This document shows, in pieces, positions 1 to 12,959 of a stretch of DNA of 23,967 nt. Origin of the DNA: a virus; the IMG/VR virus record IMGVR_UViG_3300038682_000024, positions 1 to 23,967 of that record; one strand, 5' to 3'. The translations under genes were made by a program, and so were the position numbers. Within the stretch, counting starts at the first letter, position 1; each line of letters begins with the position of its first letter. Below the pieces are notes generated by a model. It saw nothing but the letters and a program-made list of their open reading frames with translations, was not told the DNA's origin and did not search any database.

Positions 1-17
1 GTTTCCCAGTCACGATC
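1..17. other. Amplification primer/linker sequence at left contig end
   Basis: The first 17 bases are GTTTCCCAGTCACGATC, and the last 17 bases of the window are their exact reverse complement. This matches, from memory, the constant part of a primer used for sequence-independent random amplification of viral nucleic acid. It should be treated as non-phage sequence. It also supplies an artificial TGA stop (bases 10-12 on the minus strand) to the tailspike reading frame. Confidence 0.9.
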
Positions 18-1050
18 CATAGCCGTCAGGAGTGCCTAATGCTTCAACAACATACTCAGCACCGCCCCCATCTGGGTACTTTATCCCTAGCGCGCTACAC
101 TCATCAGCATTGCGAAAACTTAAAGTAGATAGCCGCTTATATGATTCTGGATGATTTGTTATTTTTGATATTGCTGTTGTGAGACTATCAAAAGTAATTG
201 ATGACTCATTCACATATGACGCTGACTCACTAATAGCGTCTGCTTTTGCGTTATCAACATAATCAACGCTCGCAACTCGCGACTCACTCCAACGACCTAA
301 CGCCTGATCTTCTGCAAATGTGTTACCTGTAGTGAAAGGTAGTTGATTTGGGTCGGGTAGCCATTGTTGATAAACAGAAACGCCTTGCGTTCCTGTGCTG
401 TAAAGCTGGAGCGGATTATCAACCAGTGTATTGGCTGTCCAGCTTAAAGCAGGCTGCACCAGTGCAAAGCGACTCTGAAATTGTGCCTTTTGCTCTGTTA
501 ATTGCGAAGAAGATAACTCTGAAAAGTCAGCTAAAGAGGAAAACCCGGTTGATATTCCAGCACTAGTGATGCTTGTGCGAACCACTGTGTCGAATACTTC
601 TACAGCCGTGTTAGTTCCATCAAAACTTGAAGCTGTAACCGTTGTTTCAGTTTTCAAGGCATCCAAGAATGAAAGCTCAACACGCGCACCAATGGCAAAA
701 GCTTCTTGATGATCGCCTAGAATATTAAATGATGATGATGAAGCATAATAAGCAGTAACAATATAAGAAAATCCAATGCCTGCCGCCTCGCTTACCGGGT
801 CTGCTGTCCATATCTCATTACCGTCTTTGTCTTTAACGACAACCTTATACGATCCAGTTAAGTAAATATCCGCATATCCCTCGCCATTCAAGATAACGGG
901 ATTGGTGTTTGCGGTAATGCTATCTTCATTTGTGTATGTTGCTTTTGGATCATTGGTTCGCGCTTTGTAGGTGTAAACCTTGCCAAAAGCTAATGGCTTG
1001 CCGTCACGGTCGAAAGCGTAGAACTTTGGGCCAATCATTGAAACTGCCAT
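18..1050 (-). CDS. P22-type tailspike/tail fibre, head-binding N-terminal part (truncated by contig end)
   Basis: This gene starts at ATG 1050, preceded by AAGGTAAATAAT, and directly follows the giant gene. Residues 1 to about 90 look like the head-binding domain of P22-like tailspikes: a short beta-rich module that docks on the tail hub, with motifs such as GPKFYAFDRDGKPLAFGKVYTY, NGEGYADIYL and GSYKVVVKDKDGNEIW. About 200 residues of connector follow. The visible end (KYPDGGGAEYVVEA) resembles the entry to a beta-helix receptor-binding domain, which is missing here. The apparent TGA at 10-12 and the final residues come from primer sequence, so the true protein continues beyond the fragment. 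In P22 the tailspike also lies downstream of the ejection genes. Whether it has enzymatic activity on a host polysaccharide cannot be judged from this part. Confidence 0.85.
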
Positions 1051-1051
1051 A

Positions 1052-4000
1052 TTATTTACCTTCTTTATTTTTCATTAGTTCGTTTCGTGATCCTTCAATG
1101 CCTGTTTTCTTAGCAACCTTCTTGGCTTTGTCTAGCGCCTTGGTAGCTTCGTTATAGTATTGAGTGAACATTGCGTTTCTTTGTTGCCATAGCTTATCAA
1201 GGCTTTCGCGTTTTTGCTCGGCAGTTAGTTTAGGATTGTAGCGTATTGAATGCTCTTGAGTCTTTATTCCTTCCTTACCGTAAGCAATACTGATTAGATC
1301 ATTCATTGAATCGTTCAGTGCAAACAATACTTCTTTTTCGCCTTTGCTTAGCCCAAAGAACGTATCGTCTTTTTCAAATTCTGTTTGCTTGTCGCCTTTA
1401 ATCATTCTGCGAATATCAATACCGGCTTTAAAGTCTGCGGTCACACGGTCAGATTGTTCTTTTAAATCAAAGAACTTTTCCATGCTGCGGTTATTAGGTC
1501 GAGTTTCTGGCGTAAGGAATCGCTTAATGAAAATATTGCTAGAAACGTCTTTGTCTGGCATTTCGCCAAACTTGTCTTCATCCCACATTAGCTTCTCAGT
1601 TCCCCAAAGCAAGTAGCCGCCCAGGTAACCAGTCTGAGCTTTAAAGGCATGCTCTGCTTTTATCGGGCTCATTCCAAGCGCTTGGCCTAATCGAATAAAG
1701 GTTTCACTGGTGTTTGAATTGTATTGATTAGTTGCTGACACATCGGCCATTCCATGCGGCACAACTGGCGCACCCGTCCATTTCTTGTTGCGGGTAATAT
1801 CCCACCAGCCTTGAGCCGCTGCAGGAACGCCGTCAATGCCGTACATTTGTAGCATTGTCCAAGCCATACCTTCGGCATACTCTTTTCCGTTTTCGTCTTC
1901 TAAGTACTTAAAGAAAAGCTCTGGCATAGTGGCATAAACAAAACCAACATCGTAAGGGCGCGGCATTTTCATAAATCGGCCATTGCCTAGGGGTATATGC
2001 CAATTGGTGCGCTTCTCATGATCTGGAATCTCTTTGTATTCTTCGTCATCCTTGTTGAACAGCCAAAGCAATAGCGTTGGTACGGTCAGGCCTAGAAAGG
2101 CTTTCATTGCCAATCCTGTAGGGTTACCGCCGTACTTGTTTTTAATAAACGCTTCTCTAAATACACGATCTTGAGACTGAATCATTGCATTCAAGAAAGG
2201 CACAGTGCGAATGTAGCCCGTCAAGAAATGGTTAGCCCCGTAAACACTGAAGTCGGTCGATATTTCGCGTGCTGCAAAGGCTGCATCCATATCGCTTGCG
2301 CCGTTCTTTTTGGCCAGTCTGAATTCACCGATACGAGTACCGTATTCAAACGCGCTCATAATATTATCGAATGCGCTTAGCATGCGCTGAGTTCTATTAC
2401 CCACGCCAACGTCTTTAATTTGCACACGCTGGCGAGCCTTGCCTGCTTTGGTGCTTCCATGTAAGCGGCTAGAGTAACCACCACCGGAACGCATAAAGTC
2501 TTGAAAGTGCTCATCCCTTGATAGGTACGAATACATTCCTTTGAATGAACCAACGAAAGGCATGAACTTATTTTTACTAATGAAGGTCGCGCCAATTGTA
2601 TCGCGCACCAGGTTGGCCCCAGTAAATTCAACGCCTAATGTAATGCTACGGGTGAAGAAGTTTTTCACCGCAAACATGCCATTCATTAGCGAGCTGTAAG
2701 ATTCGCCATTCATGGTCAATAGCATTTCCTGCAGTAGCGGGTCTTGCACTTCAAAATATTGCGGCTTGCCATTTATTAAAACGGTATCAACAAAATTACC
2801 CGACTCGGTTAGCGTTGGCTTTACGCCATGCTGCCAAAAGTTTAATAAGCCTGGGTCGCTTAAATCTAGTTCGCCCTCAATCACTACGCCTGAAGCTTCT
2901 AGCACTTCGCCAATTTTCTTTTCCATGTCGGCCAAGTGAGTTTTAACTAGCTTGGAATCTGGCGCTATCTTAGTCGCCCAAATAGCCCCGTCACGGTGAT
3001 TAGCAATGTATTGATACAAGCGCTGCTTTGCTTTTGCATCCAGTGCGGCTTTTACGTTTGATGTTACGCCGTCTTGAATATTGTGAAGAATATCTTCAAG
3101 GTTAGCAGTGCCGCCTTTTAAGCGCTGAAATCCGCCACCGCCGCCCTTGCCTTCTTCTAGGCTATCGCGCAATCGGTTGAATGGGACATAATCTTTATTA
3201 ACGGACTCCATTGTTTGACGCGCTTCAGGAGTCAATAGACCTGCCTGCTGGTACATATCCATCATGCGAGTATTGAACTCTTGATACTCAATGAAAATAT
3301 TCCCGAACATCGGGAATGTTCTTCCCATCTTTGCCCATTCCTTAGCGGTTTCTTTAGGAATAAGATTCTCGCGGCCTTGGCGGTGAAGTTCCAAAGCTCT
3401 ACGTCCGGCAAAGTAACGCATTAATAAATCAATAGGCTTTTGGCCTTTGTATTTTGGATCAGCTTTAATCAACCCCTTGAGTTCATCGACCGGCTTTAGG
3501 ATTTCATAAAGGCTTTTACCACTGCGAACCAGGTCACCGTTTTCGGCAAACTCTAAGGTGCCATAGTTCATAATGTATTCTGCTATGCCCTCATATCCGC
3601 CGTTTGCAATTCTGAATTGCTTCCACGCTGAGCCCTGTACTGGATCGCTTAGCTTACCGGTTAATTCTTTTTCAACTTCTCGCGCTGCGTGAAACTTATC
3701 AATTGTTTCTTGGCGAACAAGGCTGTCACGGCGATAGGTCCAATCCATGAACTTCCCATAAACACCTTCGTCACGACCAATAAGCGCTTGCCCAAGCTTG
3801 TCAGAACCTTGGAAGTAAAACTTGTGCATTGCTTCCTGCATGTCACGCATTGGATTCAATAGCTTGCGATCACGCGCAAGCTCTTTAACAAAGGCATCAT
3901 AAAAGCCTGGCGCTCTTAGCTTCGCTTCGTTTGAATTGGTCAGCCATAGGCGCACAAACTCGGCAAAGCCTTCTAGCAGCTCCAATTTTTTATCATCGGT

Positions 4001-7000
4001 ATAGCTTAGTGCTGCAACCTCATCTTTAAACGCGGCCTGCTTATAAAGCCTTTTGAAGTTAGGCAAAGAGACATTTGAATATAGGTCGAGGTAGTGAGCC
4101 ATTTCATGCGCCAAAATCTCAACATCATTCTTGCGAGCGGTTCTAAGCTCACCAACATCGCTACGGTAAAATCCTTGTACTGATTTACCTTTGATTTTGC
4201 CGTTGTAAATTCTGCGGCCCATGATCTTTACTAGCTGGCGCATAATTGGCTCTATACGCTGCGGCTCTGCTGGCATCTTAATGCTGCGGCCCTCAATGGT
4301 GAAAACTTCCTTGCGTGAAGGAATGCCGGTGGAGCGATAAAGGTCTACATAGTTATGACCTGGGGCGTGCACAACCGAAGGCTGGCCGCTATTTAGCTTC
4401 GCTGGCTGCTCATCTTCTCGGCGGTTTAGCGTATTGGTATCAGGCTTATCAATCGTCACCATCACTGTGGCAACACCCGTCTGGCGTTCTGAAGATTTAA
4501 AGCTGCCATCGGGCAGGTCTTCAATGTAAGAGCCAGACTCGTCAATCCATTGGCGGAACTCTACAGCCTTCTTGCGTGAATTTTTGACACCAGCACCCAT
4601 GATGGCAACTAACTTGCCACCAGGCTTTAACAATTCATAGGCGTGCTTAACGTGATCAATGTCTTGGAAGTTCTCAAACGGCGGATTCATTATGATTCTG
4701 TCGTACTGCTTGCCATCGTATTCAGTGAAGTCGTTAGAAACTACGTTATAGCCTTTGATCTCAAGCATTGAGCGCAAGCCTTGATTGATTTCGATAACAT
4801 CGATTTCAGCATTAGGCTCAGACTCTTTGATAATGTCGGCAATATTCCCTTTACCGGCAGAAGGCTCTAGCACTTGGTGACCTGGCTGAATTTCAGCATA
4901 GTCAATCATTTGCTCAACCAGTTCGCGAGGCGTTGGGAAATAACCTTCGATCTTCTTGCCAACTAAGTCACGCTCAAGCTTTTTAATTGGGTCTTCTTTC
5001 TGCTCGGTAACCGTTAGCGAATCAAGTTCACGAATAGCTGTACGTAATTGCTCATCGGTTTTAATGCCTAACTTATCAAGGCGATTCATTGTCTTTTCAC
5101 GATCTGGAATAAAGCCAAGCTCGTAAGAACTAAGGTGGCCAGCTTTCACCGCGTCATGAATTTTTTTAACTTGGTCTTTCGTCAATCGGCCAAGGTGAAC
5201 TTTACCCTCTGCCATTGGCAGTTTTTTAAGTTCTGCAGAAAATCGGCTAAACCCTTTCACCCCATCAAGCTTATCGCTGAAGCGCTTCGCTCGCTCTTTA
5301 TCAATAAACAGCTCAGGCATACGGACGTTATTAATATAATCCTCTACCGTCACGCCTTCTTTCATTGAGTTGCTAATGGAATAACCATCGTACTCGCTGT
5401 GCATCATTGAGCTAGGCACTGCCTTGCGCTGAATAGCCTTAAGCTCTTCCAGTTGGGTTATCTGCGTCATCTTGCCCAAGTAAACGATCTCACCCGCTGC
5501 CATTTTTGTGGCAATCTGCTTAACCGTTTGAGCCGTTGCTATCTGCTTGTAAGCTTTCTCGCTTGCGCTGGCTGCCTGCGCTGCACGCTTACCGGTATTG
5601 GTTTGGCGGTCTTGCCCTAGTGATTCATTTCCCTTTGCTTCTAGCTTGTCGGCCATTTCCATAAGCTTGTCGGCTTGCTTGGAATTCTTAACATCGGCTT
5701 TGGCTTCTTCAAAATCACTCTTGTCGGTATCCTTGCCTTTCAATACCTGCTCGAATTGGTCGGCCTCTTCAATCGTTTTAAATTGAAAGCCTGGGATAGC
5801 ACCAGCTTTGTTATAAGCGCTGTAGTAGCCGCCAAACTCTTTGGCCTTATCATTGAGTTCTTTGTATTGCTCTTTGCTAACACGATTAACAAGCGAGACA
5901 ACAAATAGCTGGTGGCCTTTCTTCGCGTGGGTTGTTTCTGCGCGGGTAGTTTCTACCGCTTCAGCTTCACCCTGTACGGTTTTTGGCTTGGCCTTGTCTT
6001 CTTCTAGCATTGAATCAGCAACTAGCGTGTCATAGGTCTTTAGCTGCTCAGTGGTTAGCTTTGCTTTTCCGCGTACACGAATGAATTCCTTATACTCGGC
6101 CAAGGTTTCGGGATTGGTTAGCGACTTAACAAAGGATTCTTTTCGCTTGTCGCGCTCTGCTCTTGCTTCACGCTGGCGCTCATAGTCGGTTTCGATTTGC
6201 TCTTGAGTTTGTTTTGCTACTTTTTCAGCTATCTGTTCTTCATAGGTCTTACTTCCACCGAAGATAGTCATAACCATATCGCCAAAAACATGAGCGCTTA
6301 ACATCGTTTTATAAGCTGCCTCTACCATAGCAGGCTTTTTAAGATCACTACGGCCAACGTATTTAAGCAACTGCGCCTTGGTTAGCTTTTTAAGCTGTGC
6401 CAGTACCGCGTCTTTGCTTTCGACTAGATCATCAAAACTAGATTGAATATCTTGCTTGGTTGCCGTTCCTTTCCCCGTTGACTCTCTAAACTTATGAAAT
6501 GCGATAACGGCATTGTTTGAGTAGTCCAGTTTGATAGGGTCTTTAGTGGCTGGTTCCTTTTTGGAACTAGCCACTGGCTCCTTTTTAGCTTTTGGCTCTG
6601 CTTTCTTTTTCTTTCCTATGATGATTTTCTTTGAAGGCTCAAGCTCTGCCAGTTCATTTTCTAAATCATTTTTAAGATCGTGAAGGTCATCCCAGTCTTT
6701 TGTTGCTTCTCTGTATTCTAATCTTTCTGCTTCCGTAGCTTCTGAAAAGTTAAAGTTTTCAGCCAGTTCACTATATTCTTCTAGCTTGGCCTCAGTTTCT
6801 TCTAGCTTATTTACGGTCGATTCATAATCACCACTACCAATAACATTGTACTCAAGCGAATCAATTAGCTTTGCACCATCGCCTGTTAGTGAGCCTAGAT
6901 CAATTTCAACATCAGGAAACTTAGCTTGCAGCTTTATAAGCGCTTCTGTTGCTAATCCTTGTCGTTGGTAATCTGGATCGGTATTAATCATCTTAACGGC

Positions 7001-10000
7001 TGGTATGCCTTCAAAGACTGAATAATCAACGCTTGCTACTGTTTTGCCATCGCGCTTAATTTCTATCGTAGAATCTGTTTGCTGCGCTTTTGGCTCTGCC
7101 GGTGCATCGAATAATCCAGCTTGACCTCTAGCTTCGGCTTGGTCTGCTACTCGGTCGGAACCGGCAAGTACAAAGTCATCCACTTGCTTATCGGCTTCGG
7201 CCTTTGCTTCTGCTGCTTTTTCTTCGGCCTTGGCTTTAGCCTGCTTCTCTTCTGCCGCTTTAATGTCGGCTTCGGTCTGCTGGCCTAGATCAAAATCTGG
7301 CTTGTAAGCAATAAACTCACTGTTCGCAATAGTTGGGTTAGAACCTTTAGCAAACAATTCTTTTCGCTTGGTATCGCTCAGTGACTTTAACCAGGTAACG
7401 TAATTTGGTTGCAGTCCTTCATAGTTACCGGAATAAATACGTTCGCGCTTTTGCTCTTTTTCAAGTGCTGCTTTGCTTTCTTGCTGGGTCTTTTTTGTTT
7501 TGGCTTTGGTTTCTTCTGTCTTGGCCTTGGTTTCAGATTTGCTTTGTTTGTCGTTAAGCTCGGCTAGGTTTTTAAGTTGTCGCTTAACTGACTCCTGCTT
7601 GCCATTTACCGCATCGGTAATGTCTTTGATTAGCGCATTGGTACGGCTTACGCCTAGATCACTGCTTTTAACATCAGCAATCAAACGGTCGGCATCTGAT
7701 TGGGATAGCTCTGGCTTTTTCTTTGCTTTTCGGTCTGCCCAAAATGCGGCCGCATCATCCGTATGGCCTTCTGACGGGTTTATCTCAACGCCTTCTATCT
7801 CGCTGGCAAAGTCATACATCATTGTGGCAATGCCTTGCCTGCGACTGTCTTCTCTTACCTCAACCGAACCGTATAGCTTGCCTTCATCAAAAGAAAAGAA
7901 TAAATCGCCTACCACTTCACCATCGGAGTTAAGCGCGAACATTTGCTTATCTTCAAAGCTTTCACTTACATTAAGCGTAATACCTTTAACTGTTTTGGTG
8001 CGCACTGGTTGCGTACTATCAGCTTTACCTTGTTTGTAGTTCCACTTGTCTACATCGTAGCTTTTTTCTTCTTTTTTGGTGACTTCTTCTTTGGCTGGTA
8101 ATTGGTCGGCCTTTTTCTTGCCCGTCAATTGCTCCATTAGCTTTGGGTTGGTGTGCCAGTTATCCCATGCTTTCTTTTTAGATTTAAGCTGCTTGATCTT
8201 CTTCTTAATGCCTTCGGGGTCTTTAACGTCTACCCCTTCTTTTCTGGCAAGCTCTGGGTTTTTGGCCGCACCGGTTACCGCGGTCAATGTGCGCTGAATC
8301 TCCGCCTGCTTTTTGCCAACCTTCTTGGCGAGCTCAACGGCTTCTTTCATTGCTGAATCATCAAAGCCGAATAAATCGTCTGTAGCCTGCTGCTTGTCGG
8401 TGGTCATGCTGCCAACGGCTTTAACTAGGTTTTCAGCCATGATGATAGTCTTACCATCCTGAATAGCTTTAATGCCTACCGATTGAAGCGCGTCATTCTT
8501 TGGCGCTGCTCTTGCTATCCTTGTGGCTGCTTCGTCACTGATTTGGTTAGCTCGATGACTGGCAATGAGCGTATCGCTTCCTGAATCTGCGATTGTGAAC
8601 GCCCGTTTGCCCGTTTGTCTTGCCAAAATGCCTTGTGCTGCTGCTTCGGCTTCTGTTGGCTTTGTTGCTTGTATGAATTCGACATAATCTTTTACCTTGC
8701 CTTGGCCTTCACGAATATTAAGAATAGCGTCTAATGATGCTGCTTGCTCTACGGTAAAGCCTTCGCTCTCGTAGTGGTACTGTGCTGGGATTGTTTGTTC
8801 ACCGCTGCGCTTTGCTAGGTCTAAGCGATGGCGACCGGAAATAACTTCTTTTCGGCCATCTTCTCGAACCCATATTTGAATTGGTGCAACACCGGTGCGC
8901 TCAAACTTACCGCCTAATGGTTCAACAACACCACTAGCATTAGCACCTTCCTTGAATTGCGGCACATCACTCGAAAGAGTGACTTCATCAATTGGCGCTT
9001 CAACAACTGCCAAGCCTTTAATTTGGCCCTGCTCTTTAGGCTCGGCCTTTTCTTCTGCGATCTGCTTTGTATTTTTTGGTGCTTCTGGAATATCGTAAAC
9101 CGCCGGTGTGCTTTCAGGCATACCTGGTGCAAATTCACCTTTAGGCTGCACGCCTTCAAACTCACCTGTTAATTCAAGCGGAGTGTGTGGCTTTAACTTT
9201 ATTGTGCCTTCGGTGCTTTCTTGTTGTGGTCTAGCTTCTAGCTGTGCATTAGCTGGGTCGAATTGTCTTGTAATAGCCTCTTGGTCAATCTCAAAGCGCG
9301 ATTGGTCGATAAGGTTGTTAAGTGCTTTGCCTAGCTCTGCCTCTGGGTTGTAAGTGGCTTCTTTGTAACCTGCTGAAACCGTACCTGCACCACCACCCAT
9401 ACCGCCACCAGCAACCGCGCCCGCTGCTGCAAGGTCTAGTGATTCGGCAAGAGTCATCTTTGCATTAGTGCCTAGTCGCTCGCCTGCATATTCAATCATA
9501 CCCTCTTGAATTGCTTCGGTTACCGCTTCTTTGGTGCCAGCTTTAGCCCCTGCTTTAGCTGTTCGCTTAGCTGCTTCTTTGAATCCTGATTTTAATGCTT
9601 CCTTACCAAAAGCCTCTGCTCCTGCTTCAGTAATCCCCTTTGCCCCAATTCGCTCTAATAGTGCGCTACCTACGGCAAAAGGTACGGCTTCAACAATATC
9701 AATTAAGTCTGTCTTATCTTTGCCTTTGTTTTCCGCTCGCGTTTCACCGATTTCACCCGATCTGGCAATAATATAACTAGGTAGGTTTAATAGCGCTGCT
9801 GCCATATCAGGAATGGATTTAACCCCCTGTTCGCCAATATAGCCAACAACCTCACCCCAAGCGCTGCCGCTTAAAGCACCACCCTCTGAAAATTCGCGCT
9901 TTACCTCTTCCCAGGTATGCGTAGGAATGTAGCCAGCCTCTAAGCCTTTAGCGCTTTCTTCGGTTTCAGCTAGAATATCCTTACCGCCTTGCTGTAAGTA

Positions 10001-10492
10001 AGCTTGGTATTCTTCTGGCCCCTTATAGCTTGGCAATACTCCACCATCCCAAACAAAACCGCCAATTGGCATAGATTGCTCGGCTTCTCTTGCTGCGGTA
10101 TTGATAGTGGTTAAGAATCCCGCGCCAACATCACCTGCACGCTCTATTGCACCTTTAACAGCATTCGGCACTGGGTCTGCTGCCAGCTCATTAAGCTTTG
10201 AGCTAACCATATCAAACATTGAAGGCTCTTGTTCTTGCTGCTCAATGACTTCTTGCTGCGGTATGACTTCCGATTGAATAGCTTTAGCCTGGGTAGGCTC
10301 CACCTGCGGCTCTACCGCTTGAACCTGCTCGATAGGCTGCTCGGCAACTGATTGATAGCCTATCTTTTGATTGAATGCCTCAACATCCATATCAGAATAG
10401 TATTTGCGATGAAGAGCAGAAACTAATTGGTCGTCTGCCATATCATTGTATTGCGGGTTCTTTTTTCTAAAATCTGCGATGAACTGACTCAC
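1052..10492 (-). CDS. Giant multidomain 'polyvalent' virion protein in the P22 gp16 (ejection protein) position
   Basis: This 3146-aa gene fills 39% of the window. It starts at GTG 10492 with a strong AAGGAG seven bases upstream. Visible layout: residues 1-45 carry a DFRKKNPQYNDM...LHRKYYSDM signature seen at the start of other phage internal proteins; 100-380 hold alanine/glycine-rich helices; about 501-695 a ParB/DdrB-like domain (SGRHRLDLAKRSG); 836-921 and 1139-1218 two GNAT-like domains (RRQGIAT, QRQGLAT); 1521-1586 a small GGYYSAYNKAGAIPGF module; 1844-2017 a DNA methyltransferase (LEPSAGKGN, NPPF); 2061-2188 a zincin (HEMAH at 2129, later EGFAEF); and 2605-3146 a C-terminal region resembling the LPD38-type domain of polyvalent proteins. 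Charged Lys/Ala/Glu linkers join the modules. I see no lytic transglycosylase motif. Gene order points to ejection with the DNA. The DNA-modifying and protein-modifying roles are inferred from motifs only. Confidence 0.85.
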   Translation of the reverse strand: MSQFIADFRKKNPQYNDMADDQLVSALHRKYYSDMDVEAFNQKIGYQSVAEQPIEQVQAVEPQVEPTQAKAIQSEVIPQQEVIEQQEQEPSMFDMVSSKLNELAADPVPNAVKGAIERAGDVGAGFLTTINTAAREAEQSMPIGGFVWDGGVLPSYKGPEEYQAYLQQGGKDILAETEESAKGLEAGYIPTHTWEEVKREFSEGGALSGSAWGEVVGYIGEQGVKSIPDMAAALLNLPSYIIARSGEIGETRAENKGKDKTDLIDIVEAVPFAVGSALLERIGAKGITEAGAEAFGKEALKSGFKEAAKRTAKAGAKAGTKEAVTEAIQEGMIEYAGERLGTNAKMTLAESLDLAAAGAVAGGGMGGGAGTVSAGYKEATYNPEAELGKALNNLIDQSRFEIDQEAITRQFDPANAQLEARPQQESTEGTIKLKPHTPLELTGEFEGVQPKGEFAPGMPESTPAVYDIPEAPKNTKQIAEEKAEPKEQGQIKGLAVVEAPIDEVTLSSDVPQFKEGANASGVVEPLGGKFERTGVAPIQIWVREDGRKEVISGRHRLDLAKRSGEQTIPAQYHYESEGFTVEQAASLDAILNIREGQGKVKDYVEFIQATKPTEAEAAAQGILARQTGKRAFTIADSGSDTLIASHRANQISDEAATRIARAAPKNDALQSVGIKAIQDGKTIIMAENLVKAVGSMTTDKQQATDDLFGFDDSAMKEAVELAKKVGKKQAEIQRTLTAVTGAAKNPELARKEGVDVKDPEGIKKKIKQLKSKKKAWDNWHTNPKLMEQLTGKKKADQLPAKEEVTKKEEKSYDVDKWNYKQGKADSTQPVRTKTVKGITLNVSESFEDKQMFALNSDGEVVGDLFFSFDEGKLYGSVEVREDSRRQGIATMMYDFASEIEGVEINPSEGHTDDAAAFWADRKAKKKPELSQSDADRLIADVKSSDLGVSRTNALIKDITDAVNGKQESVKRQLKNLAELNDKQSKSETKAKTEETKAKTKKTQQESKAALEKEQKRERIYSGNYEGLQPNYVTWLKSLSDTKRKELFAKGSNPTIANSEFIAYKPDFDLGQQTEADIKAAEEKQAKAKAEEKAAEAKAEADKQVDDFVLAGSDRVADQAEARGQAGLFDAPAEPKAQQTDSTIEIKRDGKTVASVDYSVFEGIPAVKMINTDPDYQRQGLATEALIKLQAKFPDVEIDLGSLTGDGAKLIDSLEYNVIGSGDYESTVNKLEETEAKLEEYSELAENFNFSEATEAERLEYREATKDWDDLHDLKNDLENELAELEPSKKIIIGKKKKAEPKAKKEPVASSKKEPATKDPIKLDYSNNAVIAFHKFRESTGKGTATKQDIQSSFDDLVESKDAVLAQLKKLTKAQLLKYVGRSDLKKPAMVEAAYKTMLSAHVFGDMVMTIFGGSKTYEEQIAEKVAKQTQEQIETDYERQREARAERDKRKESFVKSLTNPETLAEYKEFIRVRGKAKLTTEQLKTYDTLVADSMLEEDKAKPKTVQGEAEAVETTRAETTHAKKGHQLFVVSLVNRVSKEQYKELNDKAKEFGGYYSAYNKAGAIPGFQFKTIEEADQFEQVLKGKDTDKSDFEEAKADVKNSKQADKLMEMADKLEAKGNESLGQDRQTNTGKRAAQAASASEKAYKQIATAQTVKQIATKMAAGEIVYLGKMTQITQLEELKAIQRKAVPSSMMHSEYDGYSISNSMKEGVTVEDYINNVRMPELFIDKERAKRFSDKLDGVKGFSRFSAELKKLPMAEGKVHLGRLTKDQVKKIHDAVKAGHLSSYELGFIPDREKTMNRLDKLGIKTDEQLRTAIRELDSLTVTEQKEDPIKKLERDLVGKKIEGYFPTPRELVEQMIDYAEIQPGHQVLEPSAGKGNIADIIKESEPNAEIDVIEINQGLRSMLEIKGYNVVSNDFTEYDGKQYDRIIMNPPFENFQDIDHVKHAYELLKPGGKLVAIMGAGVKNSRKKAVEFRQWIDESGSYIEDLPDGSFKSSERQTGVATVMVTIDKPDTNTLNRREDEQPAKLNSGQPSVVHAPGHNYVDLYRSTGIPSRKEVFTIEGRSIKMPAEPQRIEPIMRQLVKIMGRRIYNGKIKGKSVQGFYRSDVGELRTARKNDVEILAHEMAHYLDLYSNVSLPNFKRLYKQAAFKDEVAALSYTDDKKLELLEGFAEFVRLWLTNSNEAKLRAPGFYDAFVKELARDRKLLNPMRDMQEAMHKFYFQGSDKLGQALIGRDEGVYGKFMDWTYRRDSLVRQETIDKFHAAREVEKELTGKLSDPVQGSAWKQFRIANGGYEGIAEYIMNYGTLEFAENGDLVRSGKSLYEILKPVDELKGLIKADPKYKGQKPIDLLMRYFAGRRALELHRQGRENLIPKETAKEWAKMGRTFPMFGNIFIEYQEFNTRMMDMYQQAGLLTPEARQTMESVNKDYVPFNRLRDSLEEGKGGGGGFQRLKGGTANLEDILHNIQDGVTSNVKAALDAKAKQRLYQYIANHRDGAIWATKIAPDSKLVKTHLADMEKKIGEVLEASGVVIEGELDLSDPGLLNFWQHGVKPTLTESGNFVDTVLINGKPQYFEVQDPLLQEMLLTMNGESYSSLMNGMFAVKNFFTRSITLGVEFTGANLVRDTIGATFISKNKFMPFVGSFKGMYSYLSRDEHFQDFMRSGGGYSSRLHGSTKAGKARQRVQIKDVGVGNRTQRMLSAFDNIMSAFEYGTRIGEFRLAKKNGASDMDAAFAAREISTDFSVYGANHFLTGYIRTVPFLNAMIQSQDRVFREAFIKNKYGGNPTGLAMKAFLGLTVPTLLLWLFNKDDEEYKEIPDHEKRTNWHIPLGNGRFMKMPRPYDVGFVYATMPELFFKYLEDENGKEYAEGMAWTMLQMYGIDGVPAAAQGWWDITRNKKWTGAPVVPHGMADVSATNQYNSNTSETFIRLGQALGMSPIKAEHAFKAQTGYLGGYLLWGTEKLMWDEDKFGEMPDKDVSSNIFIKRFLTPETRPNNRSMEKFFDLKEQSDRVTADFKAGIDIRRMIKGDKQTEFEKDDTFFGLSKGEKEVLFALNDSMNDLISIAYGKEGIKTQEHSIRYNPKLTAEQKRESLDKLWQQRNAMFTQYYNEATKALDKAKKVAKKTGIEGSRNELMKNKEGK

Positions 10493-10508: not shown

Positions 10509-11420
10509 TTAGCGAATGCCTAAAGGGTCTTCTGGTATTGCGTTATTTTTACTAATATTACCTGATAAACTAGGAATTTCGTAAGGTACTTTAAGTTTTC
10601 TTGCTGCTAGTGTAACGGCCTCGGCCTCATTATTTGCCTCTCCAAGCTGTAGCATTCTACTAGCTTCATCAACTACTGCTTGCATATCAGATCGTGTACC
10701 AGTTTGAAGTTTAGTTATCTGTCCTGTTCGCTCATCAAACAAACCGCCTGCAAGGTCTGCTGTTAATCTGCGAATAGTATTAATGCTAGTTGATCCTTTC
10801 CAGTTACTAGCACCGGAGCCGCCTTTGCCGTCTGCGCCACCCGCCTTAACCGGCTTATCTGCACGCTCAATTTCTCGGCCACCACGGTAAAGAATATCCT
10901 CGCCACCAACACCAACCGACTTAGGCGCCTCTAATAGCTTATCCATTGCAGTAGCTTTTGATAGTGAAAGCTCCATAAATGCCGGATCGTAAGTTTCGGG
11001 TAGCTTTGCTGCTACTTCTGGCGATAAATTCTCTTTTAGTGTTTGATAGCGCTGCGCCTGTTCTTCCGGGGTTTTCCCATTAAGAACAAACATTGATCCG
11101 CGTCCAATTTCATCAATACTACGCTTAACGCCTGCGCGTTTTGTTTCATCCATTTTACCTATAGCGTCAATAAATTGAGGCCCGTTCTCAGGATCAAGCG
11201 CTAATAACTGCTGCTGTGCATCAACATCACCTGTAACCGACTGCTGGCGCAATGCAGTAAGTTTGTTTTTCTTCTCTTCTTCAATGGGTCGCTGGTCAAT
11301 CTTATATTGAGCCTCAGACAATTGAAGGTCTGCCAATTTGTTTCTAGTTCTGGCACCCTTTACCGCTGCTGTTGTGCGGTAAATATCGGCCATGTCGATA
11401 CCGTATTGATTAGCTGCCAT
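10509..11420 (-). CDS. Putative ejection (internal virion) protein, P22 gp20 position
   Basis: This 303-aa protein starts at ATG 11420, one base after the preceding stop, with GGAAAA upstream. It is hydrophilic and mostly helical. The N-terminal half is rich in Gln, Lys and Glu (DLQLSEAQYKIDQRPIEEEKK). A glycine-rich hinge lies near residues 192-206, and a helical C-terminal third follows (DMQAVVDEASRMLQLGEANN). I recognise no catalytic motif. Its place between the gp7-like gene and the giant protein corresponds to P22 gene 20, whose product is packaged in the capsid and enters the cell during infection. The ejection role is inferred from gene order and composition, not from clear sequence similarity. 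It could alternatively be a scaffold-like internal head protein. Confidence 0.6.
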   Translation of the reverse strand: MAANQYGIDMADIYRTTAAVKGARTRNKLADLQLSEAQYKIDQRPIEEEKKNKLTALRQQSVTGDVDAQQQLLALDPENGPQFIDAIGKMDETKRAGVKRSIDEIGRGSMFVLNGKTPEEQAQRYQTLKENLSPEVAAKLPETYDPAFMELSLSKATAMDKLLEAPKSVGVGGEDILYRGGREIERADKPVKAGGADGKGGSGASNWKGSTSINTIRRLTADLAGGLFDERTGQITKLQTGTRSDMQAVVDEASRMLQLGEANNEAEAVTLAARKLKVPYEIPSLSGNISKNNAIPEDPLGIR

Positions 11421-11421
11421 G

Positions 11422-12108
11422 TTATTTTCCTAGTGATTGGTAAAGCATCCAGTTTTGCGCGGCTTGGTTTGTAGATTGAGCCATGCCTTGATAAGCACTA
11501 GCTCTAGCTGCGCCTATGTTCTGCTGTGCTATGTTTTGCGCCTGCCCTGATTGAGCCATAATGTTACCGCCAGTCGATGCAAGCTGACTTGTTGCGCCTG
11601 CTTGACGCGCTGCGCTGGCTTGGCCTTGTTGTGATAAGCCAGAAAGCATATTGTATTTTCTAGCTTTAGCATCAGCCTCGCGTGCATAGGCTGCGCCGTA
11701 TTCTTGGCTGGCTTGGCCTTGTGCATAATCTGTAATGGCTTTGTTTTGAGCGCCACTAAGTAATCGCCCTCGCGCTGCCGCTGATTTATCTAGCGCCTCT
11801 ACGCCTTCATTCATTCTAAATTGATAGCCGGGGTCTTGCTTTACATCAATCTTGCCAACTTCAAACTCGCCAGACTGAACGCCAGCCCAGAGTTTATCTA
11901 GCGCTTGCCCGCCAGCCTCAGTCCACGGCGCAAAATCTTCTCGCTGTTCTGCTGCCATTTCACGCTGAAATGCTATGTTCTCGGCGCTCATTTGTTGCTC
12001 TGCGCGAATACCGGCTTTTGTGGCTTTTGCTTGTGCATTACTTGCTTGATTGCTTGCATATCCCCCAATTACTGCGGAACCAACAATCGCCGTTGCTACG
12101 CCTGACAT
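11422..12108 (-). CDS. P22 gp7-like DNA transfer/ejection protein
   Basis: This 228-aa protein starts at ATG 12108 and overlaps the end of the cupin-SET gene by 13 bases. A short hydrophobic Gly/Ala segment (residues 4-18) opens it. A charged helical region follows, with a motif common in this phage family (EQREDFAPWTEAGGQALDKL, 55-74), then DPGYQFRMNEG (92-102) and AAARGRLLSG (110-119). The tail is very rich in Ala, Gln and Ser (160-215). I know this composition and motif order from phage proteins annotated as DNA transfer or injection proteins. In P22, gp7 is packaged inside the head and ejected into the envelope ahead of the DNA. The hydrophobic N-terminus would suit membrane insertion. 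The family assignment is fairly safe; the mechanism is inferred. Confidence 0.72.
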   Translation of the reverse strand: MSGVATAIVGSAVIGGYASNQASNAQAKATKAGIRAEQQMSAENIAFQREMAAEQREDFAPWTEAGGQALDKLWAGVQSGEFEVGKIDVKQDPGYQFRMNEGVEALDKSAAARGRLLSGAQNKAITDYAQGQASQEYGAAYAREADAKARKYNMLSGLSQQGQASAARQAGATSQLASTGGNIMAQSGQAQNIAQQNIGAARASAYQGMAQSTNQAAQNWMLYQSLGK

Positions 12109-12959
12109 AAATCACCATGCTCTGATCTGTGGTTAATAACATCACGATAGTTAGCCGTAATCTCTTCACCTGGTTCAATATCTTTTAGGGCCATAAGGTT
12201 TACACCGGAGCCACAAACTACCATAGCGGCGTTCGGGTTTAGTGCGTGATTAGTATAGCGCCCTGCTTCTGTTCTAAAATCACCAATTCTTGCCGGGGCA
12301 ATAAGGGAGCCGCCTGTTATTAATTGGTCTGCAAAATATCCTTTGCCATGAATCTTTGATTCGCCAACGAATGCCATGTTGTACTCATCAGGCATAGCCA
12401 TCATATCGGCTTCATTGGTTACTTGCTTACTGATCTCGTCTTCGGTCATTCCAATTGAATCGACCATTAGTAAGTAATCAGCACGATTTACCGCAACATT
12501 AAAATCTTCAAGCTCTTCAAAGGTTTCACAAGTAAGGTAATCAAGCATTTCATCTTCATGGCGCTCATCGGTGCTATGAAAGGTTATCCAATGCGTATCA
12601 CTGTGGGCATAGCCAGCGCGTTTTTTACCGGCTTTACCTTGCATGATATTTAAACCAGTTAATCGCTTAACTTGGCCGTCATCGGTTGAAACCGTAATAT
12701 CACCGCTTAGCATAATATCAAAGTGGTCGAACTTATGAATGCGTCCGGTTAGTAGCGTACCTGCTTTAATTGTAAGCTCACGCGCATACATACCAGCATG
12801 AAAGTGATGGTCAATAGGAATATCAAGCTGTGGGAACTCTTTCATTTTGGCTTCAAGTGCAAATAACGAAGCAATGCTTTCGGCTTTATCAGGCAAGCAA
12901 GCAGCCCCGACAATATCAATACCTTTCTGCTCGTTACTTACATTTACGCTATCAGACAT
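12096..12959 (-). CDS. Cupin-SET fusion, putative protein lysine methyltransferase
   Basis: This 287-aa protein starts at ATG 12959, overlapping the preceding gene by 8 bases (ATGTCTGA), which suggests translational coupling. Residues about 50-130 look like a cupin beta-barrel, with clustered histidines (HHFHAG at 51-56, GRIHKFDHFDIMLSG at 72-86, YAHSDTHWITFH at 117-128) able to bind a metal. Residues about 190-275 look like a SET domain: GESKIHGKGYFA (199-210), GRYTNHALNPNA (233-244; family pattern NHxxxPN) and GEEITANYRD (264-273; family pattern GEELxxxY). SET enzymes transfer methyl groups from S-adenosylmethionine to protein lysines. No cysteine-rich post-SET motif is seen. The gene sits where P22 has gene 14, inside the tail/ejection block, which suggests a virion-associated or ejected enzyme. 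The target is unknown. Confidence 0.75.
   Translation of the reverse strand: MSDSVNVSNEQKGIDIVGAACLPDKAESIASLFALEAKMKEFPQLDIPIDHHFHAGMYARELTIKAGTLLTGRIHKFDHFDIMLSGDITVSTDDGQVKRLTGLNIMQGKAGKKRAGYAHSDTHWITFHSTDERHEDEMLDYLTCETFEELEDFNVAVNRADYLLMVDSIGMTEDEISKQVTNEADMMAMPDEYNMAFVGESKIHGKGYFADQLITGGSLIAPARIGDFRTEAGRYTNHALNPNAAMVVCGSGVNLMALKDIEPGEEITANYRDVINHRSEHGDLCQA

Follow-up and report, generated by a model that had tools for sequence, protein, structure and literature searches.

The gp16 slot of a small marine P22-like podovirus was found to be occupied by a giant polyvalent protein of 3146 amino acids, in which a constant chassis appears to carry an exchangeable set of enzyme modules. The window, i.e., the whole virus record of 23,967 bp that was analyzed, contains the late genes of the phage, every one of them on the minus strand, and the giant spans positions 1052–10492 as a single unbroken frame of 3146 codons with a GTG start (350.7 kDa). 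An open reading frame of 9.4 kb is far past chance expectation, and the single frame proposed by the initial annotation was confirmed by the frame itself, by a second contig and by relatives. The second IMG/VR contig (36,324 bp) carries an open reading frame of identical length, differs by one mismatch over ~15 kb of overlap and has a complete tailspike of 944 aa directly after the giant, while some 20 phage relatives, with identities of ~60%, keep the frame intact; since these sequences carry the giant too, an assembly-fusion artefact was rejected. The GTG start (position 10492) and the first residues, V-S-x-F-I, are kept in all close relatives examined, and dN/dS of ~0.04–0.18 in the conserved parts (D478 vs. 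FGH) indicates purifying selection on the giant. In another IMG/VR contig (3300010430_000240; L038:3600-3610) a break within the zincin domain divides the frame into parts of 1200 and 908 residues, which may represent either a sequencing error or a genuine split.

The gene order on the minus strand is terS-like, terL, portal, scaffold, coat, an unknown gene, gp4-like and gp10-like, followed by head-fibre/needle-like, SET-domain protein, gp7-like, gp20-slot, giant and tailspike. The coat protein matched Pfam P22_CoatProtein (2e-42), and the portal, terminase, gp10-like and gp4-like proteins are also P22-like. Two genes upstream of the giant lies a gp7-type DNA ejection protein of 228 aa (11422–12108, minus strand; phrog_598 “DNA ejection,” 1.7e-40), and between the two lies the gp20-slot protein of 303 aa (10509–11420, minus strand; phrog_36852). 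The description of this order as P22-like up to gp20 stood for the head genes and gp7; the gp20-slot protein is a counterpart by position only, with no signal of P22 gp20 homology by BLAST, HMMER or hhalign, where one side was often a single sequence. The giant is the last gene of the gp7-gp20-gp16 block and precedes the N-terminal part of the tailspike (10–1050, minus strand), which runs off near the window end and has 944 aa in locus L016. P22 gp16, a 609-aa member of phrog_770, holds the same genomic slot, but no homology to the giant was detected by BLAST, HMMER, hhalign or PHROG, again often with a single sequence on one side, so that these negatives are weak ones. A side observation concerns the 287-aa protein upstream of gp7 (12096–12959, minus strand), in the gp14/collar position, where a SET domain (Pfam, 2.8e-8, residues 167–271) follows an apparent cupin half recognized by eye. 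A protein-lysine-methylase fold amid virion genes is unusual, and since relatives such as D478 carry merely a 186-aa “short tail fiber protein” at this place, the SET part may be an addition.

Comparison of the gp16 position among phages revealed giants, reduced giants or proteins of ~550–820 aa. Giants of 2631–3640 aa occupy the same slot in Vibrio phages D478, 41E34.2, FGH and VvAW1, Shewanella phage X14 and Thalassomonas phage BA3. In D478, 41E34.2, FGH, X14 and BA3 the gene after the giant is at the expected tailspike position, and in most IMG/VR relatives an N-terminal tailspike match follows the giant immediately. This conservation of slot and gene order across phage isolates and IMG/VR contigs counts in favor of an ejection protein. 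Among gp7 relatives without a giant, the slot protein has ~550–725 aa in Rhodoferax phage P26218, DSL-LC05, ctpVu19, CBW1004C and loci L022, L024, and L027, and up to ~820 aa when Vibrio phage 1.184.A is included. No empty slot was found among the loci examined, and a gp16-sized protein was present wherever the giant was gone.

Phage 1.184.A provided sequence evidence of exchange at this slot. Its head genes share ~84–89% DNA identity with those of D478, and the first 196 aa of its gp20-slot protein are 91% identical to those of D478 and unrelated beyond, with the breakpoint near codon 196 (L008:13275-17310). Both the giant and the C-terminal portion of the gp20-slot protein are replaced by a pair of proteins of 419 and 819 aa, of which the 819-aa protein resembles the gp16-slot protein of CBW1004C (8e-9). 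A remnant of the 3′ end of the giant, now frameshifted, survives between the 819-aa gene and the tailspike; its DNA matches cover 129 bp with 90% and 189 bp with 97% identity, and its protein matches 61 aa with 97% and 27 aa with 85%. Because this remnant persists, the sequences directly indicate that the ancestor of 1.184.A carried the giant and lost it by replacement. The statement that the giant replaces gp16 is consequently correct as regards the slot, as this exchange and its scar show, and incorrect if taken to mean a gp16 homologue. The simplest reading is that the gp20-slot protein had its C-terminal part swapped in the same event, which suggests that this part contacts the occupant of the gp16 slot. 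We infer that the gp16 slot must be filled.

Alignment of the giant with its closest relatives showed that residues 1–420 and 1320–3146 align throughout, whereas residues 420–1320 are variable. The N-terminal chassis segment (residues 1–420; 9233–10492, minus strand) begins with FIxxFRxxNPQYNDMxDDQLVxALHxKYYSDxxxExFNQKIG and is present in all close relatives at ~43–56% identity. This motif was rejected as a general ejection signal, as it is restricted to the giant’s group, Ruegeria phage 45A6 and Pelagibacter phage HTVC106P. The C-terminal chassis (residues 2260–3146; 1055–3715, minus strand) is mostly alpha-helical in the AlphaFold2 model (pLDDT 80.8, pTM 0.79). Its relatives in IMG/VR number at least 581, and in the 43 cases whose layout was compared it stands last in the open reading frame, preceded by 40 to at least 3000 residues, the shortest being a broken frame. 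It contains the LPD38 domain (residues 2816–2980; 1553–2047, minus strand; Pfam PF18857, 3.9e-40) and, just before it, a hydrophobic helix (residues 2794–2812; 2057–2113, minus strand), which is helical in the model and shows a mean hydropathy of more than 1.2 in 27 of the 32 family members, and which is therefore, by hydropathy alone, a candidate for membrane insertion. The fold had no counterpart in the PDB (best E-value 1.1) and matched predicted structures of LPD38 proteins from many phages, including PTXU04 gp25 (Foldseek TM 0.79). The C-terminal chassis also occurs in Pelagibacter phage HTVC204P gp40 (L028:7861-11622), a 1253-aa protein encoded beside the tail-fibre gene in a SAR11 podovirus whose tail genes are T7-type, and thus crosses podovirus lineages; Bacillus phage Palmer gp20 has part of it as well.

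Domain searches and structure prediction recovered the enzyme folds anticipated in the initial annotation, which had counted at least five enzyme-like modules: a ParB-type module by Foldseek, two GNATs and a methylase by Pfam, and a zincin by motif. The ParB-type module (residues 490–780; 8153–9025, minus strand) has an N domain with the motifs GRHRLDLA and NIRE, followed by HTH-like helices. An AlphaFold2 model of residues 481–1240, submitted to Foldseek, matched ParB/Noc/KorB/Spo0J structures with E-values from 1e-6 to 1e-3 (best 1.1e-6; prob 1.00) over ~160–250 columns; in the ParB part most 10-residue block means were 73–94, with one loop at 55–61, and the model overall reached 66.0. In the module alignment A4, built from a 44-locus family of IMG/VR loci, the G-x-x-R motif (GRHR) is invariant, and Pfam ParB_N matched 10 of 24 family members (best 0.001); a search of the PDB with the sequence profile found no chain. 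The predicted N-domain fold, the G-x-x-R motif and the helical domain that follows thus agree with the ParB superfamily. The ddrB-ParB model PF18763 gave no match in the giant (P0001) or in A4 members, yet it matched phiARM81mr at 2e-36, and a DdrB-type identity was therefore rejected. On the structural model, residues 490–780 are assigned to a ParB-superfamily module with a CTP-binding-type N domain and HTH-like part, other than the DdrB type.

The GNAT pair is the least well supported of the five modules. GNAT 1 (about residues 825–935; 7688–8020, minus strand) carries RRQGIAT and matched Pfam Acetyltransf_7 (1.3e-5) near residues 848–903 with 25.9 bits, just below the family cut-off of 27, and it shares 43% identity with a free-standing protein of jumbo phage HRDY3. 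GNAT 2 (about residues 1135–1225; 6818–7090, minus strand) carries QRQGLAT and matched Acetyltransf_1 above the cut-off (4.9e-6, residues 1141–1192). The cassette model gave RimI/RibT-type Foldseek matches at E-values of 0.03–0.1, in which GNAT 1 and GNAT 2 were not separated, and a search for IMG/VR relatives of both GNATs found only the same phage. A RimI-like, protein-acetylating role has been proposed for the GNATs of polyvalent proteins (Iyer et al., 2017; PMC5512222), and the two domains may be acetyltransferases of this kind. Behind them, a conserved region of unknown function without a Pfam name (residues 1320–1800; 5093–6535, minus strand) is shared with H66 gp60 and phiARM81mr p69, i.e., it accompanies the methylase into otherwise different giants.

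The adenine-methylase-type domain (residues 1847–2025; 4418–4954, minus strand) matched Pfam MTS (9.3e-7, residues 1870–1968) and PADLOC mad2 (3e-20), and PDB sequence searches with the giant gave weak methylase matches only. Its motifs FPTP, LEPSAGKG, and NPPF, which are retained in close relatives, are of the type that marks the gamma-class adenine methylases of polyvalent proteins (Iyer et al., 2017; PMC5512222). Located behind it is the zincin metallopeptidase (residues 2030–2260; 3713–4405, minus strand), with HEMAHYLD at residues 2129–2136 and EGFAEFVR. The phage-type signature, an HEXXH motif, an Asp three residues on and a Glu in the helix that follows (Iyer et al., 2017; PMC5512222), is found in the giant, and HEMAHYLD…EGFAEF is present in every complete zincin domain of its family. 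The zincin is the sole enzyme found in every close member, including those that lack the methylase.

The modules are distributed unevenly among relatives. The ParB module is common to the giant, D478, X14, 1.183.O, and 1.211.A (75% identity) and occurs in many IMG/VR giants of otherwise different composition, while the giants of BA3, FGH, and 41E34.2 lack it. X14 and 41E34.2 share ~98% identity over the stretch that starts near X14 residue ~790 and reaches the end, and 76% at the N-terminus, with unrelated cassettes, which points to a recent cassette exchange. Chassis-only members, which consist of the N-terminal segment, zincin and C-terminal region without methylase or ParB module, are found in loci L048, with a cut 3′ end, and L060 (1619 aa). 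The N-terminal segment, zincin and C-terminal region thus appear to be the constants of the group, and the methylase, ParB module and GNATs its optional parts. As far as our searches show, this layout of constant chassis and variable cassette, the recent cassette exchange and the replacement scar in 1.184.A are new.

The classification as a polyvalent multi-enzyme protein was upheld by the domain tests, and the giant counts as one of the known polyvalent proteins: its single chain combines several domains with disparate activities, LPD38 is present (3.9e-40), and the gene sits among late virion genes. A study of 2017 had already described polyvalent proteins together with their expected injection, LPD38 and zincin processing, and the proteins treated there share with the giant the multi-enzyme chain, LPD38, zincin and location among virion genes (Iyer et al., 2017; PMC5512222). 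The giant differs from them in a ParB module missed by the ddrB-ParB model, a methylase without helicase, tandem GNATs, and a constant chassis with an exchangeable cassette in the gp16 slot. Orthologous giants are present in GenBank, many as hypothetical proteins; those of D478, X14, BA3, Vibrio phage vB_ValP_FGH and V. crassostreae podoviruses share 60–66% identity, slot and neighbors, but have 2631–2741 aa and lack the GNAT pair. The “DarB-like antirestriction” protein of VvAW1 (3640 aa) occupies the same slot and has the zincin and C-terminal chassis (37% identity), but carries an Eco57I-type methylase and an SNF2-type helicase instead. P1 DarB, named earlier as an established example, does not fit as the model: the giant has an adenine methylase with the TP and NPP(F/Y) motifs (FPTP and NPPF), but no SWI2/SNF2 helicase lies behind it, with neither a helicase family nor a Walker A motif detected, and DarB membership was rejected. 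The DarB-like podovirus giants JC1 gp69 and Bcep22 gp75 resemble the giant in having LPD38 near the C-terminus, but have 4515 aa (JC1 gp69), a lysozyme-like N-terminus and a methylase-helicase, and no PHROG link. Phage N4 gp50 works alike as a giant enzyme and third ejection protein of a podovirus, but contains an RNA polymerase instead of methylase, ParB and GNAT modules, and is unrelated in sequence: no polymerase family and no N4 gp50 match was found in the giant, and neither chassis region gave a signal against N4 gp50 by BLAST, HMMER or hhalign, with one side often a single sequence.

These giants also bear on whether such a chain can be packaged. The N4 vRNAP (3500 aa, 383 kDa, ~4 copies), the third ejection protein of that podovirus, is thought to cross the tail unfolded, and Pavtok gp27 has 5007 aa (PMC8402733). 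With these and the 4515-aa JC1 gp69 in existence, size is no obstacle to ejection, and the view of the giant as exceptionally large for a short-tailed phage was overstated. JC1 is a Bcep22-like podovirus in which gp69, with LPD38 at residues 4195–4401 in its domain table, was found by mass spectrometry in CsCl-purified virions (51 unique peptides, 15.6% coverage). H66 gp60 (3787 aa, F116-like), annotated as mass-spectrometry verified, has 46% identity to the giant over the methylase region, and the LPD38 chassis was not found in it. Because mass spectrometry detected one giant with LPD38 and another with the methylase region, the giant is, by analogy, likely packaged in the virion; a literature search found no proteomics for its phage or close relatives. 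The C-terminal chassis is all that PTXU04 gp25 shares with the giant. A screen in E. coli BL21 showed that gp25 is required, with a large plating drop on knockdown. That strain lacks type I restriction, which argues for a role of gp25 beyond anti-restriction. Few gel bands were analyzed for the PTXU04 virion, and only gp7, gp10, gp11, and gp12 were identified.

The reading that we favor, with modest confidence, is that the giant acts as the third ejection protein, its chassis completing the conduit and its cassette being delivered to the cytoplasm. A carrier made up of the first 420 residues, the zincin and the LPD38-bearing C-terminal region would handle capsid packaging, passage out by way of portal and tail, and the end of the DNA conduit at the inner membrane, a job done by gp16 in P22. 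The cargo between the carrier parts (ParB-type module, two acetyltransferases and methylase) would cross into the host in a mostly unfolded state, together with the DNA or shortly ahead of it. Once refolded, it would work on incoming DNA and host proteins within the first minutes. The methylase may mark the genome on entry as a protection from restriction and, being without a DarB-type translocase, may work otherwise than DarB; the acetyltransferases may modify host proteins, and the zincin probably frees the cargo by cutting. A service function of this kind fits the zincin, as it never goes missing in the group. We infer packaging, ejection, the membrane role, proteolytic release and every target of the cargo. 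Against this reading, the chassis showed no sequence or fold link to P22 gp16, N4 vRNAP or any PDB structure.

The constant zincin could also belong to a precursor that is cut before or during packaging, so that only fragments reach virion and host, as with P1 DdrB. We consider this unlikely, but to be taken seriously: the domain is intact in every close member, also without methylase, and P1 DdrB enters the virion in a processed form of 76 kDa, yet the N4 vRNAP, said to contain a domain of this kind, is packaged without processing (Iyer et al., 2017; PMC5512222). The peptides and coverage of JC1 gp69 speak against cleavage as well, with the limit that a whole-lane digest cannot tell pieces from the full chain. 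What separates the precursor from the favored third ejection protein is when the zincin cuts, whether inside the cell that makes the phage, within the capsid or following entry.

If the giant were instead ejected anti-defence cargo and nothing else, gp7 and the gp20-slot protein alone would build the conduit. The variable cassette resembles anti-host cargo, and in P1 an anti-restriction protein, DarB, is carried in the virion (Iyer et al., 2017; PMC5512222). However, the slot is never empty in the loci examined and receives a gp16-sized protein where the giant is gone, chassis-only versions exist, and PTXU04 gp25 was needed in the BL21 screen, so we regard this alternative as improbable. A late intracellular, non-virion protein, e.g., one methylating progeny DNA, would agree with the methylase domain, with the assignment to a “transcriptional regulation” module in the X14 genome paper and with the lack of proteomics found for the close group, but is very improbable, as relatives already have separate early-region adenine methylases, the gene lies in the ejection block, and virions of other phages contained relatives with LPD38 or the methylase region.

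The question at stake, which includes N4, is how very large proteins exit the capsid via a narrow tail and act on arrival. The phages compared here offer a natural experiment, in which near relatives have the giant, a reduced giant, other cargo on the same chassis, or a normal-sized slot protein, and the question of conduit part or cargo thus becomes directly testable in environmental phages of marine bacteria. The group also marks the boundaries of natural cargo exchange. Tentatively, and as a possibility that we hold less firmly than the role as third ejection protein, the group may have a dedicated delivery chassis that both completes the conduit and carries exchangeable effectors, which a protease releases. 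If true, it would be an ejected, phage-borne counterpart of modular secreted toxins, i.e., a vehicle of natural origin with a cargo slot that evolution has filled anew many times.
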